From: Limnothrix sp. FACHB-406
GTDB lineage: Bacteria > Cyanobacteriota > Cyanobacteriia > CACIAM-69d
Direction of reading: 5' to 3'
NCBI RefSeq assembly: GCF_014698235.1
Contig: NZ_JACJSP010000005.1
Span: forward strand, 1 to 64,000
Length of the DNA stretch: 64,000 nucleotides
Part shown: one piece after another, positions 40,157 through 48,226 of the stretch
Position numbering within the stretch: the stretch's first letter is position 1
How the letters are laid out: each line of letters starts with the position of its first letter
Made by a program: the position numbers and the translations under genes
The notes under the pieces: model-generated
Seen by the model: the letters and a program-made list of their open reading frames with translations, nothing else
What the model was told of the DNA's origin: nothing
The model's database searches: none

Positions 40157-41101
40157 CTAAGGTCGATGCCAAACTGAGGCGATCGCCCGGCCCAGTTGCC
40201 GCCCCAGCGATCGCACCGGGAGCTGGCACAACAAACAGGCCCCCAGCACCAAAGCCGCTCCCACCCGGCCCCGATCGCCCAACTGTTCCCCCAACCAAGC
40301 CGCCGCCATCAGGGCCGCCCAAACTGGCTCCAAGGTATACAAAATCGCCGCCACCGGAGCCGCCACTGATCGCTGGCCGATCGCCTGCAACCAGGCCGTG
40401 CCCGCCGTGGCAAAGGTTCCTAAATAGACCAAATCTAGCCAAGGAATGGTTTGGGGGTTCCAAATTGCAGACGAAATCGCCCATGAAGACCCCCACACCC
40501 ACAGGGCCGCCGCCAGAGTCGTGATCCCCAACTGAATCAATGACAGCCACAGCACTTGGGCCCGAGCCGCGTAGGCCTCCATCCGCCAAATATAAAAAGA
40601 CCAAGTGATAGCCGTGCCCACGCTCCACAAATCCCCAATATTGGGCGGTGCGCCATCGTAGGACAGCAACGCCACCCCCAACGCCGCGATCGCCGCCGCC
40701 CACCAAACCTTAGGGAACAGCCGCTGGCCCGCAACGCCCGTCAGCAATGGAACCAAGACTACATAGAGGGCGGTGATAAACGCGCTACGCCCCGCTGTAG
40801 TGTATTGCAGCGCGATCGTGTGAGCCACATAGCCCAAGGCCATCCAGAAGCCTAATTCCAAGCCTCCGCGCCCAGTAACCGCCCAAGCGGCTGAATTTTT
40901 CGGCAAACCGCTCCAAAGGGTGATCGGCAACAAAGTAATGGTGGCAATGCCAAACCGCACCAACATCAAAATGCTCGGGGAAACGGCCTCTAAACTAGAC
41001 TTGACAACAACATAGGTACTTCCCCAAAGTACGCCCGCAACTAACAGCGCGATCGGGTTCAACCATTGCTCGCGATCGGCCCTTTCTACCCCGTGGATCA
41101 T
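40157..41101 (-). CDS. EamA/DMT-family transporter
   Basis: About 314 aa with ten predicted transmembrane helices in two EamA repeats (first: VAGVLWGSTYVVVKSSLEAV, second: LWSVGTAITWSFYIWRMEAYA). Drug/metabolite transporter superfamily; substrate unknown, usually an exporter of amino acids or metabolites. I chose the ATG at 41101 because GAGG precedes it by 6 nt; an ATG at 41113 is in frame. Either way the start codon overlaps or passes the start of the divergent gene at 41100. Confidence 0.87.
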   Translation of the reverse strand: MIHGVERADREQWLNPIALLVAGVLWGSTYVVVKSSLEAVSPSILMLVRFGIATITLLPITLWSGLPKNSAAWAVTGRGGLELGFWMALGYVAHTIALQYTTAGRSAFITALYVVLVPLLTGVAGQRLFPKVWWAAAIAALGVALLSYDGAPPNIGDLWSVGTAITWSFYIWRMEAYAARAQVLWLSLIQLGITTLAAALWVWGSSWAISSAIWNPQTIPWLDLVYLGTFATAGTAWLQAIGQRSVAAPVAAILYTLEPVWAALMAAAWLGEQLGDRGRVGAALVLGACLLCQLPVRSLGRQLGRAIASVWHRP

Positions 41102-42497
41102 GTCTCGCCTCAATGATCGTGCTTACCAACTCCTGAAGGGAGCTATCCGTGCCCGCTATCAACAACAACCCGCCGCCCGGATTCCCAAGGAAGTGCTGTG
41201 GCAGCGGTTAGAAAAGTTGCGGTTGCAGTCTGGCGAGCCGGCCAGCTTTGAAGATCTGCGGGCGATCGTGAGTGATGCTTTCCCGGATTTTGATCTGGGC
41301 TTGCTCAAGTCCGCCGCTCGCCTTAACCAGCCTAAGACGGGCTGGGGATTTTGGGCTTGGGGATCTTGGGGCTGTGGTTTGGCGGGCGTGGTGGTGGCGA
41401 CGGGGGGAATTGCCCTGGCCAACCTGCCATTGCCGCCGATTCGGAATGTGGTGGCAGACAACGCGCCATTGCTGTTGCTGCCCAGCTTTTGGATGATGGA
41501 TCAAGATTATCGAGCCGCCACCGCCGCCACGGCCCAGGCCAAGCAATTGCTCGACAATGCCACCAGTGCGGCCGATATTGAACTGGGAGCCACCAAAACC
41601 CAAGCGGCCCAAGCAGCGCTCGATCGCCTGCCCGTTTGGTTTTTGGGGTCTCGGCCAAAGACTTATTGCAGCCTGTTTTCATGCCGGTGGCGATTCACGT
41701 TGGATGAATTTGCCGCCGCCCGCCAAACCGTGGCCCGTTTGGAAGCGCAAGTGTTTCAGGAGCGCAATGCCCAAGCCTTGTTGAATCAGGCCTTGGCAAC
41801 CGTGGAAACGGCCCGCCAACAGCACCAAAGCGCCAAGGACAGCAGCGCCCAAAACGCGGCTCTCGGTGATTGGCAGTCAGGAATCGATCGCCTGCGGGAA
41901 GTGCCCCAGAAAACCTTGGCCGGGCGGCAAGCACGGGCCAAACTGGTTGGGATCGATCGAGACTTTCAATCGGTCACTGGTCGGGCGGTGGGGCGGCAGC
42001 AAGTGGGCAGCCTGATCACGGGGGCCAAGGAATATGGGTTTCGGGCGGCCTTGGCTGCTCAAAAACCTCCTCACCCGGTGGAACAGTGGCGGGTGGTGCA
42101 AAACCTGTGGCAAGAGGCCTTGGCCCTGTTGACCCAAATTAAGGATGATGATCCGCAATTTGCGGCCGCCCAGCGACTCCGGGCGGAATATGCGCAAAAT
42201 CTGGCAATTGCCAAGCAGCGGGAGGCTTTGGAGCGCCAGTCGATCGAGTCTTTGGAACAAGCGGATCTGCAAATCGCCCAATGGCGCACCCTGGCCGCTG
42301 CTGACCCCAGCAATCCCCGACTGTTGGGAACGCTCCAGGAGATCGAAAACAACTTGGAGCGGGTTCACCCGGCCAGCACTGCCTACGCCAAGGCTGAACA
42401 GTTGCGCCAGTTTGCGAACCAAGCGCTCCAGCGCTACCAACCCATGACTCCGCAGCCCAATGTTGCCCCGGATGCTCCTGCCACCCAAGCTCGCTAG
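41100..42497 (+). CDS. Conserved cyanobacterial membrane/coiled-coil protein, function unknown
   Basis: 465 aa. N-terminal 75 residues are a small helical domain (LNDRAYQLLKGAIRARYQQQ, SFEDLRAIVSDAFPDFDLGL). One membrane segment follows at about 88-110 (AWGSWGCGLAGVVVATGGIAL), possibly a second at 120-136. The remainder is helical coiled coil with Ala/Gln-rich heptads (LDEFAAARQTVARLEAQV, LNQALATVETARQQHQ). No catalytic motif seen. A structural or scaffolding role at the membrane is inferred. Head-to-head with the DMT transporter, with overlapping start codons in CATG. Confidence 0.7.
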   Translation: MSRLNDRAYQLLKGAIRARYQQQPAARIPKEVLWQRLEKLRLQSGEPASFEDLRAIVSDAFPDFDLGLLKSAARLNQPKTGWGFWAWGSWGCGLAGVVVATGGIALANLPLPPIRNVVADNAPLLLLPSFWMMDQDYRAATAATAQAKQLLDNATSAADIELGATKTQAAQAALDRLPVWFLGSRPKTYCSLFSCRWRFTLDEFAAARQTVARLEAQVFQERNAQALLNQALATVETARQQHQSAKDSSAQNAALGDWQSGIDRLREVPQKTLAGRQARAKLVGIDRDFQSVTGRAVGRQQVGSLITGAKEYGFRAALAAQKPPHPVEQWRVVQNLWQEALALLTQIKDDDPQFAAAQRLRAEYAQNLAIAKQREALERQSIESLEQADLQIAQWRTLAAADPSNPRLLGTLQEIENNLERVHPASTAYAKAEQLRQFANQALQRYQPMTPQPNVAPDAPATQAR

Positions 42498-42676: not shown

Positions 42677-45097
42677 TCAGGGGCGATCGCGCCAGGGCTG
42701 GGCGGTGGTCAGGTGGTGGTGATAGAGCGGAACCCAGAGCCGATAGCCGCTGGGGCTGTTGGGGTCGGGGCGGAGAATTTCTTTGTGGAGCAGCTTTTGC
42801 AGGGGGCGATCGTCTTCGGGACGGAGGGGCTGCTGGGTCAGCAGTTGCGTCAGGGCGGCCCGTTGGGATGCGGTGAGGGAGCCTGACCAAAATTCCCGCA
42901 GGATTGTGTCCCCGGATCCGGTGGCCCGATCGAGGGCGCGATCGACATCATCCACGGTGGCGCGGCGGCGTTGTTCGTGGTTCAGCAGTTGCACCACTTC
43001 AAAGCAGAGGTTTTGAGTCCAGTAGGGGTGGCCGGCTGTCCAGTGCCAGATCCGATCGACGGCTGCGGGGTCGTAGATCTCGGGGAAGTCGCGCTGGGGT
43101 TCGGGTTTGATGATCAGGTCGCGGCTGTCGGCTTCGCTGAGGTAGGAGACTTTGACGGTGCGGGTGTTGATCAGGTAGTCGCTCCAGTAGGGGTTGAGTT
43201 CGTTGGGGTCGTGGGAGCCACAAAACAACAGCGTCCAGGCACGGCGATTTTGGAAGATGTAGCGAAAGAAGTTGAGGGGGGCGCGGCTGCCAGTGGTGTT
43301 GATCAGTTCCTCTAGTCGTTCGTATTCATCCAAGCAAAGCCAGAAGCGCCGGTTGGGATAGCGCCGTTCAATCTCGCTGAACCAGTGCTGGAGTGCCGAG
43401 AAGGGATCGTCCTGGAGGGCTTGGGCATTGGGTGGGGGCAGGCGCAGGTTGCGGGCTTGGTCGGCGGCTCGGGTGATGTCTTGGGCGAGGTTGCGGGCAA
43501 AGCCGGCCAGGCTGCTGGCGGAACCAGCGGAGCCTTGCAGGTCTACGCGCAGGGGCACGATTTCGCTGTTGAGGCAACGGGGCAAATAGTTGAGGGCCCA
43601 GCTTTTGCCCATTCGGCGGTTGCCCCACAGCAGCAGCATGGGCGGCGAGCTGGCTTGGGCCAGGTTTTCGAGTTCTTGGAACACATCGCGCCGCCCCCGA
43701 AACTGTTGCACGGCGGCGGTGTCAATCAGGCTGGCGTTGGGGCTGTAGGGGTTGGGGAGTTCGCCGGTGCGTTGGGCGGCTTCGCTGAGGCGGTCTTGCA
43801 AATCTTGGATCGCCTGTTGCCATTGGCGCGCGGCCCGCAACAGATCGGGAATTAAGGCGCGATCGGGCAGGGCGGCAATGTCGGCCGTGAGGGCTTCCAG
43901 GGCTTGCTTGGGCCATTCTAGGTTTTGCTGTTGGCGATAGGGGCTAGTGGCCGCGTTGGTGGCTCGAATGTCGCCAGCCAGTTCCAAAAAACGCAACAAA
44001 ATCGGATTGACGCGATCTGTTTTTCTGATCAGTTGAGAGAAAAACTGAGAAAATCGCCATGCCATTCGATCAAATGAGTCGGAGACCCAATCTGGCTCGG
44101 AATTTTCGTCATCAAAACTCTGAGCAGGAATCCAGGCAATTTCCTGAGAAACAGCTTCAATGTCTTGAACATTGCGGCAAGCTGCCAGTCGAAGCGCAGC
44201 AATGCTTTTCATGACTTGGCGGGCACGGCTTTTTTGATTGGTGAATTCCAATAAATACTCTAGTTCTCGTTTGCCGAGTTGAGGTGACTCTTGATAAAGT
44301 CGAATCAGGTTTTTGTTTAAGAAAGGCAAGGGAAAATAAATAATTTCATCTAGGCGATAGGGAAAATAGGGAATGGCGGCTGCCACCGAATTGCCAATAA
44401 TGAATCGATCTAGAATCAACGACCAAATCGGTGCAAAAATACCCCAATAAATTCTGAAAATTCCTAGGGGCCAACCAATCGTAAAGGCCACGCCTACCGC
44501 CACGTCTCCCCCCACGCCTACCGCCACGCCTACCGCCACGCCTCCCGCCACGCCTACCGCCACGCCTCCCGCCACGCCTCCCGCCACGCCTAACGCCACG
44601 CCTCCCGCCACGCCGAACGCCATTCGGCCAAGCTCACCAGGCATTAATAGTCCTATTAAGACACTCAACCCTAGCCCTATGGTGAATATGACGGCCGCCA
44701 TCAAATAGCCATGACGTTGTGACCAGCCTCGACGGGCTAAAATTAATCCAATTAACCAACCTACTAGCGTTGATCCGGCATTGACAAAATATGTATCTGT
44801 CAGGAAGTCAAAATTGCTGAACTGCCCTAGCCCACCAATGACCATACTGATCATGATCGGTGCAAATACTGTCAGCCACCAAGCTTGGTTTGCATAAGCC
44901 TGCAATCGTCGATTGTTTGGATCTTTTTTGAGGAAAAAAAAGGGATTAGAGTCCCACTTTAAATCAGGGTGAATTGTCTTTAGTTCAGCTTGGAGCGAAA
45001 AGGGTTTGAAATAGCTGAAATAGAGTAACCGCAGGGCAGAGCGAACCGATCGCCCAAACTGCGCCCAAGCCTTAGCCTGCTTTGGTTTATTTCTCAT
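42677..45097 (-). CDS. Membrane protein with C-terminal AAA-type ATPase domain
   Basis: 806 aa from the ATG at 45097. N-terminal half: membrane segments at about 71-90, 105-122, 130-152, then a Gly/Val/Ala repeat region (161-208, units GVAGGVAV) likely packed in the membrane, and more hydrophobic segments to 230. Residues 270-460 are helical. The C-terminal ATPase has P-loop GNRRMGKS at 492-499, preceded by FRGRRDVFQEL, Walker B FWLCLDEYERL with D590/E591, and a sensor-like FCGSHDPNELNPYW. It ends with a winged-helix-like segment. The Gly-Val repeat comes from a 12-bp tandem DNA repeat. Base composition shifts near 44.0 kb, suggesting domain fusion. Overlaps the upstream ATPase gene by 11 bp. 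Confidence 0.75.
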   Translation of the reverse strand: MRNKPKQAKAWAQFGRSVRSALRLLYFSYFKPFSLQAELKTIHPDLKWDSNPFFFLKKDPNNRRLQAYANQAWWLTVFAPIMISMVIGGLGQFSNFDFLTDTYFVNAGSTLVGWLIGLILARRGWSQRHGYLMAAVIFTIGLGLSVLIGLLMPGELGRMAFGVAGGVALGVAGGVAGGVAVGVAGGVAVGVAVGVGGDVAVGVAFTIGWPLGIFRIYWGIFAPIWSLILDRFIIGNSVAAAIPYFPYRLDEIIYFPLPFLNKNLIRLYQESPQLGKRELEYLLEFTNQKSRARQVMKSIAALRLAACRNVQDIEAVSQEIAWIPAQSFDDENSEPDWVSDSFDRMAWRFSQFFSQLIRKTDRVNPILLRFLELAGDIRATNAATSPYRQQQNLEWPKQALEALTADIAALPDRALIPDLLRAARQWQQAIQDLQDRLSEAAQRTGELPNPYSPNASLIDTAAVQQFRGRRDVFQELENLAQASSPPMLLLWGNRRMGKSWALNYLPRCLNSEIVPLRVDLQGSAGSASSLAGFARNLAQDITRAADQARNLRLPPPNAQALQDDPFSALQHWFSEIERRYPNRRFWLCLDEYERLEELINTTGSRAPLNFFRYIFQNRRAWTLLFCGSHDPNELNPYWSDYLINTRTVKVSYLSEADSRDLIIKPEPQRDFPEIYDPAAVDRIWHWTAGHPYWTQNLCFEVVQLLNHEQRRRATVDDVDRALDRATGSGDTILREFWSGSLTASQRAALTQLLTQQPLRPEDDRPLQKLLHKEILRPDPNSPSGYRLWVPLYHHHLTTAQPWRDRP
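44495..44620. repeat. 12-bp coding tandem repeat (Gly-Val-Ala)
   Basis: About ten copies of units such as cacgcctaccgc and cacgcctcccgc, in frame with the membrane ATPase gene and encoding GVAVGVAGGVA on the minus strand. Copy-number change would keep the frame and lengthen or shorten the hydrophobic segment. Confidence 0.9.
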
Positions 45098-46256
45098 TAC
45101 TTGGCTCCAATAGTCGATTTGGCAACTCGATTGCGCTGTTGATCGCTTCTTGTACCTGCGGCGATTTCCAGGCTCCAATTGCGATCCCACCAATGGCGAT
45201 GAGGATGATCATTCCTGTCGCGATCGTTCCTGCTTCATCCAGCTTTGCCCCCAGCCACATTGCCAACTGCCCCGCCGTTTTGGGCATCCACAGCAGCGCC
45301 GCTACCAGTTGCTTTCCTCGCCCCGGCCGCGGCTCCGACGGCAGCTCCACCGATCGCGTTTGCGCCAAAAACTTTTGATGGGCCCAATCCAGCGTTTTGC
45401 CCTCACGCCGCGATCGCCACAAGCAAGCCCCCGCCTTTTGCAACAGCTCCGGCGCATACCCCTCCGGTTGCTTCACCCACCTCAGCGCCGCCGCCTTGTC
45501 CGCAGCGCTCAACCCCGCCCCAGGACAACTCAACAGTGCCTCCGCCTCCTGCCGATTCAGCGGACACAAATTCACCTTCTGCAACACATTGAAAAAGTCC
45601 GATGTGATCTTCTTTTCGCGGCTGTAAATCTCCACATCCCGCCGCGAAGCCACCACCAACAACAGCGGTGAATTTTGGGTCAGCGATCGCCACCCATCAT
45701 AAAAATTCATCCCAAACTCCTCGGGATGATCCATCGCATCTTCAAAATCATCCAGACAAATCAACCAGCGCCAACCCGCCAACCGCAACGCCGCCAACAC
45801 CGGCTTGATGCAACTGCCATCCTGGGCGCTGTCTTGGTTGACCGTGGCGATCGCCCGTTGTACTTCCGTTGCGATCGAGGAGTTGCCCTGAATCACCGGC
45901 TGCCCCAACAAATCCTGCAAAATCCGCTGATGAAACCCATTCACCGTGCGGCATCCGGGATCTTTGAGTGATACCCCCGTCACCACCCAAGTGCCCAGAT
46001 GGTTGGCCTGGGCAATGGTCGCCGCCTGGGTTGCAAAGTAGTGCAGCAACGACGACTTGCCCAGCCGCGCCGCCCCATGCAGGTTCACACAACGCGGCGA
46101 TTCGCAAAACAGATGAGATTCAATGTCGCTGATGGTATCGTTGCGTCCGACCAGCTTGGCACGATCGGCGATCGGCTGGCCAAAGGTGAACGGAGAGCCG
46201 GTCGAAGCAGAGGAGGATGGGGGCACGATCGCGATTCCCACAAAAATTTGTGACAA
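45087..46256 (-). CDS. P-loop ATPase with C-terminal membrane anchor
   Basis: 389 aa (TTG at 46256; GTGs at 46241 and 46226 are alternatives). AAA/STAND-like ATPase: FGQPIADRAKLVGRND precedes the P-loop HGAARLGKSS at 60-69, Walker B WLICLDDFED with D169/D170, and VVASRRDVEIYS is a sensor-like strand. A winged-helix-like segment follows (EAEALLSCPGAGLS ... APELLQKAGACLW). One hydrophobic helix at about 345-362 (IATGMIILIAIGGIAIGAW) makes it tail-anchored. The domain order is the reverse of its partner downstream, which has the membrane part first. The two genes overlap by 11 bp and are almost surely co-translated. Function unknown. Confidence 0.75.
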   Translation of the reverse strand: MSQIFVGIAIVPPSSSASTGSPFTFGQPIADRAKLVGRNDTISDIESHLFCESPRCVNLHGAARLGKSSLLHYFATQAATIAQANHLGTWVVTGVSLKDPGCRTVNGFHQRILQDLLGQPVIQGNSSIATEVQRAIATVNQDSAQDGSCIKPVLAALRLAGWRWLICLDDFEDAMDHPEEFGMNFYDGWRSLTQNSPLLLVVASRRDVEIYSREKKITSDFFNVLQKVNLCPLNRQEAEALLSCPGAGLSAADKAAALRWVKQPEGYAPELLQKAGACLWRSRREGKTLDWAHQKFLAQTRSVELPSEPRPGRGKQLVAALLWMPKTAGQLAMWLGAKLDEAGTIATGMIILIAIGGIAIGAWKSPQVQEAINSAIELPNRLLEPSNEK

Positions 46257-46570: not shown

Positions 46571-46987
46571 ATGCCTGCTAAAGATCTCTATCACCAAACT
46601 GTTTGCAATGCCCTAATTGATGATGGCTGGACGATTACGGATGATCCCTTGATTCTAAAAATTGGTGCGCGATCGGTCTTTGTCGATTTGGGTGCAGAAC
46701 GCCTAATTGCGGCTGAACGCGGTTCTGAAAAGATTGCGATCGAGATTAAAAGCTTTCTCAGTGCCTCTCTTGTCAGCGATCTCGAAAATGCCTGGGGACA
46801 GTTTTTTATGTATGCTCGCGCTCTAGAGAAACGCGAACCCGATCGAATTCTGTATTTGGCCGTGACTCAAGAAACTTTTAATACGATTTTTCAAGAGCCG
46901 ATCGGTCAACTTTTATTAGAAGAACCGGGTTTTCATTTGGTTGTTTTTGATGCAAAAACGGAGAAAGTTGCAGAATGGAAGCCTTAG
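46571..46987 (+). CDS. xisH: XisH family protein (element excision controlling factor)
   Basis: 138 aa. Matches XisH: MPAKDLYHQTVCNALIDDGW, then VDLGAERLIAAERGSEKIAIEIKSF, AWGQFFMYARALEKREPDR and a DAKTEKVAEW end. The IEIKSF segment with an upstream acidic residue fits a PD-(D/E)XK-like endonuclease core. In Nostoc/Anabaena XisH and XisI are required with XisF for excision of the fdxN element; but xisH/xisI pairs are widespread in genomes without that element, as here. ATG at 46571. The end overlaps the xisI start by 13 bp. Confidence 0.9.
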   Translation: MPAKDLYHQTVCNALIDDGWTITDDPLILKIGARSVFVDLGAERLIAAERGSEKIAIEIKSFLSASLVSDLENAWGQFFMYARALEKREPDRILYLAVTQETFNTIFQEPIGQLLLEEPGFHLVVFDAKTEKVAEWKP

Positions 46988-47334
46988 AAGTCAAGACAAT
47001 TCCTAACCTCGACCAATGGCGATCGCTCCTAGAAAAAATCCTTAGCGATTATGCCAAGTTGCCCTATCGCTATGGAGATGTGGCAACCTATTTGGTGGTT
47101 GACCAAGATCGCAATCATTTCCTGCTCATGCAAGAAGGCTGGGAAGAGAATCGACGAGTGCATGGCTGCCTAGTTCATGCCGAAATTCGGAACCAAAAAA
47201 TCTGGATTCACTACGATGGCATTGAAGGCGGGATTGCTAATGAGCTAACAGAGTTGGGAGTTCCGAAAGATCACATCGTCTTAGCTTTCCATGCTCCCAC
47301 CGTTCGGCAATATACGGGCTACGCGATCGATTAA
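46975..47334 (+). CDS. xisI: XisI family protein
   Basis: 119 aa. Conserved XisI features: WRSLLEKILSDYAKLPYRYGDV, DRNHFLLMQEGWEENRRVHGCLVHAEIRNQKIWIHYDG, GIANELTELGVPKDHIVLAFHAP and TGYAID at the end. Always paired with XisH; the 13-bp overlap indicates translational coupling. Toxin-antitoxin-like or excision-control roles have both been considered for the family; no recombinase gene of the XisF type is seen in the window. Confidence 0.9.
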   Translation: MEALEVKTIPNLDQWRSLLEKILSDYAKLPYRYGDVATYLVVDQDRNHFLLMQEGWEENRRVHGCLVHAEIRNQKIWIHYDGIEGGIANELTELGVPKDHIVLAFHAPTVRQYTGYAID

Positions 47335-47376: not shown

Positions 47377-47397
47377 CTCAACCCAACCTACTCGACT
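47377..47397 (+). repeat. 21-bp direct repeat, right copy (flanks xisH-xisI)
   Basis: Same sequence as 46531-46551. It also forms the right arm of a hairpin gttgggtt (47361-47368) / aacccaac (47380-47387), which could act as a weak terminator for xisHI. Confidence 0.85.
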
Positions 47398-47819
47398 TAA
47401 TCAGGTGGATGACGATTGATAGACTTGAGTAGTTTTCGTAAGTTCACCACACCTGATCGATTTAGCTTCAATGCTTCGACAGTTGCTCGCCCGATCGGTG
47501 TTAAGCCAATTGCCAAGCTACAGTCTTCATTCCAAGCAAAGTGCTCGTTCCACACCTGCTGTCGAGGATTGAATAAACCGGTCATCTGTCCAGTCAAAGG
47601 ATCGATCGCAGAGATTTTATTATATTTATGATTGTTGCAACCCTGACAAGCCAAGGCTAGGTTCTCTAAAGCTGTTTCACCTCCTTGACTGACAGGAATA
47701 ATGTGCTCAATGGAAAATGCCTGTAGTGCAAACTGAACTTGGCTACGACAGTACTCACAGCAGTTAGCAGCGCGTATTTCAACGGCTGTACGAATTGCAG
47801 ATGAAATTTGACGACTCAT
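47397..47819 (-). CDS. HNH endonuclease-like protein
   Basis: 140 aa. Treble-clef HNH nuclease: zinc cysteines in CCEYCRSQ and CQGCNNHK, catalytic His pair in FSIEHIIPVSQGG, Asn in TALENLALAC. The C-terminal part (NPRQQVWNEHFAW, TPIGRATVEALKLNR) is typical of small cyanobacterial stand-alone HNH proteins. Acts on nucleic acid; the target is unknown. Its ATG overlaps the stop of the upstream gene (ATGA), so it is the second gene of a two-gene unit. Confidence 0.88.
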   Translation of the reverse strand: MSRQISSAIRTAVEIRAANCCEYCRSQVQFALQAFSIEHIIPVSQGGETALENLALACQGCNNHKYNKISAIDPLTGQMTGLFNPRQQVWNEHFAWNEDCSLAIGLTPIGRATVEALKLNRSGVVNLRKLLKSINRHPPD

Positions 47820-48226
47820 TCAATAACTGTCGGTAGTTGAAGTAGACCTAGATCAATCATGAGTTGATCTAAGGAAGTCTGTCGGAGTTGCGCTAGTTGC
47901 AGCAAGTTCCCTAAACGCTCGGCTTCTAGATTTTCGATGCGATCTCCTAGCGTAATTAACTCTGAATATTCTTCTGATGTCAGAGCATTTGCATCGCGCT
48001 GGATCAATAAATAGTGATAACGCTCTTGCAGCTCTACAGAAATCGCCTGATTAATCGCCAATAGCAATCGAGATTCATCAGCACTCAGGATGACTGGGCG
48101 TTTCTTTGTCGCATTGGGAACAGATGGCCATGCTAGAAACAGCGATCGAATTAATTCGCCGATTAAGATCAATCGATCGCGCACTGACCAAGTAGCAGCC
48201 TGTGATCGTAAATCCTGAAGGTTCAT
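47816..48226 (-). CDS. Small helical protein paired with the HNH nuclease
   Basis: 136 aa, soluble, all-helical. The N-terminus MNLQDLRSQAATWSVRDRLILIGELIRSL resembles the short helical motif of addiction-module antitoxins (LSxxERLxLIxxL). The middle and end (ADESRLLLAINQAISVELQ, LTSEEYSELITLGDRIENLEAERL, QLRQTSLDQLMIDLGL) match a cyanobacterial family that I have seen next to HNH genes. ATGA overlap with the nuclease suggests that its product controls or stabilises it. No catalytic motif. Confidence 0.7.
   Translation of the reverse strand: MNLQDLRSQAATWSVRDRLILIGELIRSLFLAWPSVPNATKKRPVILSADESRLLLAINQAISVELQERYHYLLIQRDANALTSEEYSELITLGDRIENLEAERLGNLLQLAQLRQTSLDQLMIDLGLLQLPTVIE

Follow-up and report, generated by a model that had tools for sequence, protein, structure and literature searches.

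Positions 42,677 to 46,256 of a 64,000-nucleotide stretch of DNA from the cyanobacterium Limnothrix sp. FACHB-406 (contig NZ_JACJSP010000005.1; the whole stretch is called the window below) hold two overlapping genes, P2 and P1, that encode P-loop ATPases of the STAND type, each predicted to be anchored in the membrane. The two proteins very probably act together in some way. They may well form a membrane-bound hetero-STAND switch of the kind found in conflict systems, a reading that we hold tentatively. The gene pair, its predicted domains, its linkage and co-evolution, the swapping of attached domains among relatives, and the combination of constraint with fast change are supported directly.

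Conservation and co-evolution of the gene pair

A search profile built from the conserved core of P1 (alignment A1) found relatives in 93 of 390 genomes of the cyanobacterial class at E <= 1e-20. The GTDB was scanned with the same core and the best 80 loci were retained; their hosts are Cyanobacteria, Chloroflexota, Parabeggiatoa, Magnetococcales, Ca. Electronema and another member of the Desulfobulbaceae. An earlier note, made from the letters of the window alone, had proposed a two-component membrane ATPase system and had stated in advance that the proposal should fall if homologues of the two genes were usually apart. Loci were scored when the P1 reading frame was uncut by a contig edge and at least 1.3 kb of upstream DNA was present. 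A P2-like STAND gene is situated upstream of P1, on the same strand and at most four genes away, in 55 of the 57 scored loci, and this linkage spans Cyanobacteria, Chloroflexota, Pseudomonadota and Desulfobulbaceae. A STAND partner was also found upstream in 14 of 15 cyanobacterial loci of a second sample, being clearly P2-like in ten and a divergent STAND protein immediately upstream or nearby in four, while one locus (L196) has none. In both samples the outcome bears out the earlier proposal, and the linkage favors a conflict-type switch.

The gap between the two genes is often between -82 and +133 bp; intervening passenger genes, where present, widen it to 0.3-1.5 kb and in one case to 3.1 kb. 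Genes for VapB-like and PIN-domain toxin-antitoxin proteins are found in this position, on the same strand, in Nostocales (L108:7054-7661, L097, L110, L113 and L125). The exact architecture of the window occurs in other Cyanobacteria, in an Ardenticatenia metagenome-assembled genome (L066), in Parabeggiatoa (L072) and in Magnetococcales (L073).

Over 60 pairs, the trees of P1 and P2 mirror each other with a correlation of r = 0.978. The value is 0.893 in the window-like subfamily, 0.900 when only the cyanobacteria of that subfamily are taken, and 0.916 in the other large clade; all of these include a contribution of shared host phylogeny. None of 2000 permutations reached the observed correlation in any of these tests, and the mirrored trees count in favor of the proposed switch. 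The named hosts, largely filamentous lineages, also fit a conflict-type switch. STAND/EAD conflict systems have been described with this distribution (PMC7159879, PMC8195603).

Both reading frames are intact in the window. Their counterparts in a congeneric genome (G001) are 86% (P1) and 67% (P2) identical, and the ratio of nonsynonymous to synonymous substitution rates (dN/dS) is 0.21 for P1 and 0.35 for P2. These low ratios show that both genes are constrained and that the reading frames are not due to chance; they speak against the pseudogene that the earlier note had allowed for. The pair nevertheless changes fast relative to its neighbors: dN between the window and G001 is 0.219 for P2 and 0.081 for P1, compared with 0.010-0.028 for the MurF, EamA, 465-residue and ABC-F genes. 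The dS of P2 is also raised (0.62), so that exchange for a divergent allele is a possibility alongside fast evolution. The most divergent stretch of P2 is its C-terminal tail. Neither P1 nor P2 was detected in the congeneric genome G002 or in G004, in both of which the EamA and 465-residue genes are adjacent; a match to the P1 repeat alone in G002 was taken as spurious low-complexity similarity. The fast evolution and the patchy presence both speak for the conflict-type switch.

Structure of the two proteins

The Walker A and B motifs of a STAND/AAA-type P-loop domain are present in both proteins, as quoted in the earlier note (GNRRMGKS and LDEYERL in P1, GAARLGKSS and LDDFED in P2). The opposite domain order described there was borne out by hydropathy, with a multipass membrane region ahead of the ATPase in P1 and one transmembrane helix behind it in P2, and the 11-bp overlap of the genes is as it had been given (Table 1). 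P1 starts with an ATG at 45097, with a GGAG a short distance ahead of it, and an 838-residue reading frame from 45193 is merely a longer TTG-start reading of the same gene. P2 lacks an ATG start. Its candidate starts are the TTG at 46256 and the in-frame GTG codons at 46241 and 46226, and its ortholog in G001 starts at the GTG equivalent to 46241.

The AlphaFold2 model of P1 has a mean predicted local distance difference test (pLDDT) score of 73.7, with a confident STAND domain and a low-confidence membrane domain. The model of P2 has a mean of 79, its STAND domain lying mostly at about 80-96. When the models were compared with known structures using Foldseek, the top match of P1 in the PDB was the NRC4 resistosome, and P2 matched ORC/Cdc6 and the archaeal ATPase 2qen; the STAND folds of both count in favor of the switch. 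These matches have a probability of 1.00 and E-values of about 1e-5 to 1e-7 with modest TM-scores, and thus support a fold class rather than a close relationship. A search of PDB sequences gave no meaningful match. Against Pfam, P1 scores 26.7 for AAA_22, slightly under the cut-off of 27, and has no match to nSTAND1, a family that its relative in L046 passes with 41 bits.

An N-terminal motif of the LLYWxYFKP / LLFWLFFRP type occurs within the first 90 residues of 44 of 54 P1 homologues. The sequence AGHPYW in P1 fits the GxP-type motif that follows the NTPase core; the corresponding site is EGYAPELL in the P2 of the window and HPxLLQ in its relatives. All P1 proteins with a scored Walker B motif have DE in that motif. 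The glutamate is replaced in 18 of the 22 window-like P2 proteins, by aspartate (13) or by lysine or arginine (5); the four that retain it are all non-cyanobacterial, and the P2 proteins of other clades keep it. The Walker A motif of P2 is intact. The replaced glutamate suggests that P2 may be a poor or non-hydrolysing partner of P1, and is counted in favor of the switch.

Table 1. Features of the gene pair and of the adjoining XisH/XisI genes in the window
Feature	Position	Strand	Description
Gene P2	45087..46256	minus	389 aa; N-terminal STAND ATPase, C-terminal transmembrane helix; TTG or GTG start
P2 STAND domain	45381..46166	minus	residues 31-292; nSTAND1 27.9 bits (cut-off 27.1), passes
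P2 Walker A GAARLGKSS	46050..46076	minus	GAARLGKS at residue 61
P2 Walker B LICLDDFED	45738..45764	minus	residues 165-173; Walker B Asp followed by Asp instead of Glu
P2 C-terminal transmembrane helix	45159..45236	minus	residues 341-366, by hydropathy; position conserved in homologues
P2/P1 overlap	45087..45097	minus	11 bp, ATGAGAAATAA
Gene P1	42677..45097	minus	806 aa; N-terminal multipass membrane region, helical linker, STAND ATPase at the C-terminus, winged-helix-like end
P1 N-terminal motif LLYFSYFKP	45002..45028	minus	residues 24-32; family consensus LLYWxYFKP / LLFWLFFRP
P1 membrane domain	44411..44884	minus	residues 72-229; about 5-6 transmembrane segments by hydropathy; low model confidence
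12-bp tandem repeat (MINISATELLITE)	44487..44622	minus	about 11 copies of GGCGTGGCG(GTA/GGA); encodes (Gly-Val-Ala-X)n
P1 conserved core	42680..44002	minus	residues 366-806; linker, STAND and C-terminal region; alignment A1
P1 Walker A GNRRMGKSW	43598..43624	minus	GNRRMGKS at residue 492
P1 Walker B LCLDEYERL	43313..43339	minus	residues 587-595
XisH / XisI	46571-46987 / 46975-47334 (46571..47334)	plus	divergent neighbors of the pair; associated in some loci only

Exchange of attached domains among relatives

The domains attached to the two ATPases differ from one relative to another. The partner of P1 or a gene adjacent to it carries EAD1 (L032), a trypsin-like peptidase (L033 and L197), TIR-EAD9 (L035), TIR (L200 and L202), CHAT (L124), a helix-turn-helix (HTH) domain (L105) or BTAD (L111). 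The effector or effector-recruiting domains among these (EAD1, trypsin, TIR-EAD9, TIR and CHAT) are counted in favor of a conflict-type switch. An HTH domain is present in many P2 proteins of Nostocales, and BTAD is carried by those of Chloroflexota. In L065 a CHASE2 domain (E 1.3e-52) stands in place of the P1 membrane domain. A single protein of 1120 residues (L039:3223-6585) combines two TIR-type (TIR-TIR) and two STAND-type ATPase domains. On a mobilizable plasmid of Acinetobacter ursingii (L226, NZ_MH220285.1) a restriction-modification-like operon encodes an N6-methylase/specificity protein that ends in a P1-type STAND domain; upstream of it is a type I R gene, and a second STAND gene follows with an overlap of 8 bp. 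The L039 protein and the plasmid genes are likewise counted in favor of the switch. No P2 was found in plasmids. This exchange suggests that the constant part of the unit is the two STAND ATPases and that inputs and outputs vary. The version in the window has membrane domains as its only attached domains.

A 12-bp repeat in the membrane domain of P1

Within the P1 membrane domain, the stretch at about residues 162-203 stems from a 12-bp tandem repeat that did not figure in the earlier note. The repeat of G001 has exactly one more unit, its P1 being 810 residues long instead of 806. The GC content is 0.79 in the repeat and 0.55 in the remainder of P1, and all eight alanine codons of the repeat are GCG, compared with 8 of 74 in the rest of the gene. 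A similar GC-rich unit is found in L046 and L072, in genes with otherwise about 40% GC.

The pattern GGCGTGGCGNNN, corresponding to three units, is present in 13 of 380 cyanobacterial genomes, and a reversed control gave no match. In all 13 the sites, compared by eye, are on the same strand as a P1-core match and at most about 1.1 kb upstream of it, and thus fall in the N-terminal portion of a P1-like gene. Several assemblies are broken at the repeat. In genome G003 it is additionally found at two contig ends between which one P1 gene is divided: contigs C144 and C90 (L031 and L034) both end within the Gly-Val-Ala minisatellite. Because the assembly breaks there, short-read annotations probably miss the P1 gene or show it in pieces. 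Several contig-edge loci start 133-185 residues ahead of the P1 conserved core.

Neighboring genes

The accessory neighborhood of XisH/XisI, HNH and MNT genes that had been described around the pair is present in the window, but most of it lies outside the conserved unit. XisH and XisI lie next to the pair both in the window and in G001. In L032 (4797-6792) a P2-like EAD1-STAND gene overlaps XisH, which in turn overlaps XisI, so that this cassette is translationally coupled to the STAND gene. A XisI-like ORF (open reading frame), recognized by eye, lies 21 bp after P1 in L202. No XisHI homologue was found near the pair in the 80 loci of the GTDB scan. An HNH gene and a 136-residue gene (47397-48226) separate XisI from MNT in the window and are absent from that position in G001 (L030), for which reason both were rejected as parts of the unit; XisHI, HNH and MNT were likewise rejected as fixed components, not being general among the loci. 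Further loci with an HNH gene close to the pair are L084, L090, L101 and, by eye, L202.

On the other side, a gene for a protein of 465 residues (41100-42497) adjoins the EamA transporter gene in G001, G002 and G004, and P1 comes after it in the window and in G001. A small RelE/ParE-like ORF, also recognized by eye, lies between the 465-residue gene and P1 in G001 (L030:4750-5013); none was noted in the window.

Proposed mechanism and alternatives

In the mechanism proposed here, for which we infer complex formation, a trigger, ATP-driven oligomerisation and a membrane output, P1 and P2 would be the two halves of one membrane-bound STAND switch. P1, having a complete Walker B motif, would act as the ATPase, and P2 would probably bind ATP with little or no hydrolysis and serve as the regulatory partner. 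In the resting state the multipass domain of P1 and the C-terminal helix of P2 would hold the pair at the membrane. A phage component, membrane stress or another cue of infection or damage might trigger ATP-dependent co-oligomerisation, clustering the Gly-Val-Ala "glycine-zipper" transmembrane helices of P1, which could be the output or a sensor. The clustered helices would then change the permeability of the membrane or pass a signal across it, and the cell would stop. In relatives the same core would instead fire soluble effectors (TIR, trypsin, CHAT or EAD-recruited).

Several results weigh against this mechanism. No effector enzyme is encoded in the window, and no effector domain was recognized in P1 or P2 by Pfam, NCBIfam or PADLOC, as the earlier note had reported; nor did any PADLOC profile, including those for Avs, match either protein. 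The P1 membrane domain is modeled with low confidence. NB-ARC proteins likewise have LDD at Walker B, so the inactivity of P2 is not certain. No relatives of P1 were found in viral contigs and phages. Among 147 proteins neighboring 15 P1 loci, 41 PADLOC families were matched (E <= 1e-8), compared with 63 among 148 proteins from control stretches of the same genomes about 300 kb away, showing no defense enrichment. The BTAD, HTH and CHASE2 domains of some members point to a role in sensing or gene regulation no less than to one in killing. These domains and the lack of enrichment are also the grounds for the main rival, which we consider rather unlikely: that the pair serves sensory signal transduction, the P1 membrane domain sensing an envelope or extracellular cue, the STAND domains relaying it, and the N-terminal domain of the partner, DNA-binding in relatives, altering gene expression. 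The P2 of the window has no DNA-binding domain, and its version would have to relay to a further partner. The TIR, trypsin, CHAT, EAD and restriction-modification domains of several relatives are more typical of conflict systems, and the pair evolves fast and is patchily present.

The proximity of XisH and XisI in the window, G001, L032 and L202 could mean that the true output lies with them, the STAND pair being their membrane-linked regulator. Their absence near the pair throughout the GTDB-scan loci makes this improbable, and XisHI is in any case common in filamentous cyanobacteria. It is just as hard to see the pair as a transporter or channel assembly energized by two ATPases, a quite improbable function to which one operon with two ATPases and a multipass glycine-rich membrane domain would be suited: neither protein matches an ABC or other transporter family in Pfam, none was noted among the top 50 structural matches, and the folds match STAND/ORC. 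Moreover, relatives can do without the membrane domain or have another in its place, which would not be expected of a permease. These results speak against the known transporter complex considered in the earlier note. In-frame stops do occur in some homologues elsewhere, as would be expected of a decaying mobile remnant without present function, but with both frames intact in the window and dN/dS well below 1 this explanation is very improbable. The role that had been left undefined can be given more closely as that of a STAND switch in conflict or signaling.

A bolder proposal, which we regard as possible and rather doubtful, is that a portable heteromeric core of two STAND ATPases, present in several phyla with many inputs and outputs (a membrane pore or sensor, CHASE2, TIR, trypsin, CHAT, EAD, a transcription factor, restriction-modification), constitutes a distinct class of bacterial immune or signaling switch. 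In the branch of the window its membrane part would be tuned by the copy number of the in-frame 12-bp minisatellite, a repeat found only in the P1 family among the cyanobacterial genomes searched. P1 would be a testable case of a transmembrane domain whose length shifts in four-residue steps, and the pair could serve in prokaryotes as a simple model for a hetero-NLR whose output is at the membrane.

Comparison with known systems

The analysis defines a conserved two-gene STAND unit in which the two ATPases co-evolve and the attached domains vary, known immune effectors, sensors and regulators being exchanged for one another. In the literature searched neither such a two-STAND membrane operon nor a 12-bp glycine-zipper repeat is described, the papers of Kaur et al. 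and context being all that was found.

Among published concepts, the nSTAND2 two-gene operon (Kaur et al. 2021, eLife e70394, PMC8195603) comes closest, being also a bacterial operon of two STAND NTPase genes with a predicted hetero-multimeric product. One STAND of that operon has eroded NTP motifs; in the P2 of the window Walker A is intact and aspartate stands in place of the Walker B glutamate. Both proteins of the operon are nSTAND2; P2 scores 20.6 against the Pfam cut-off of 24 and P1 has no match in Pfam, while several relatives of P2 exceed the cut-off. Unlike the nSTAND2 operon, the window proteins and scanned relatives have no GT4 or HEPN effector domain by Pfam, both window proteins are predicted to be membrane-anchored, and the swapped domains are different (TIR, CHAT, EAD, trypsin, BTAD, CHASE2 and methylase).

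The EAD/STAND and MoxR-vWA conflict systems (Kaur et al. 2020, eLife e52696, PMC7159879) similarly combine a modular NTPase core with exchangeable trypsin, TIR and EAD domains, and are enriched in multicellular bacteria, as is the pair. No MoxR, vWA or VMAP was identified here, the core of the pair consisting of two STAND ATPases and a membrane domain. The membrane-associated EACC1 system (System 4, PMC7159879) also has two genes and a membrane helix with small or glycine residues; no EACC1 or caspase domain was found by Pfam in the pair, both genes of which encode ATPases. With Avs, bNACHT and the eukaryotic NLRs and resistosomes, including NRC4, the pair shares a STAND switch and the N-terminal position of the output, but it consists of two genes, with no recognized C-terminal repeat sensor and no PADLOC match. 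By the tests made, the pair is not a member of a named system, but it would work like the STAND/EAD conflict systems (PMC7159879, PMC8195603).

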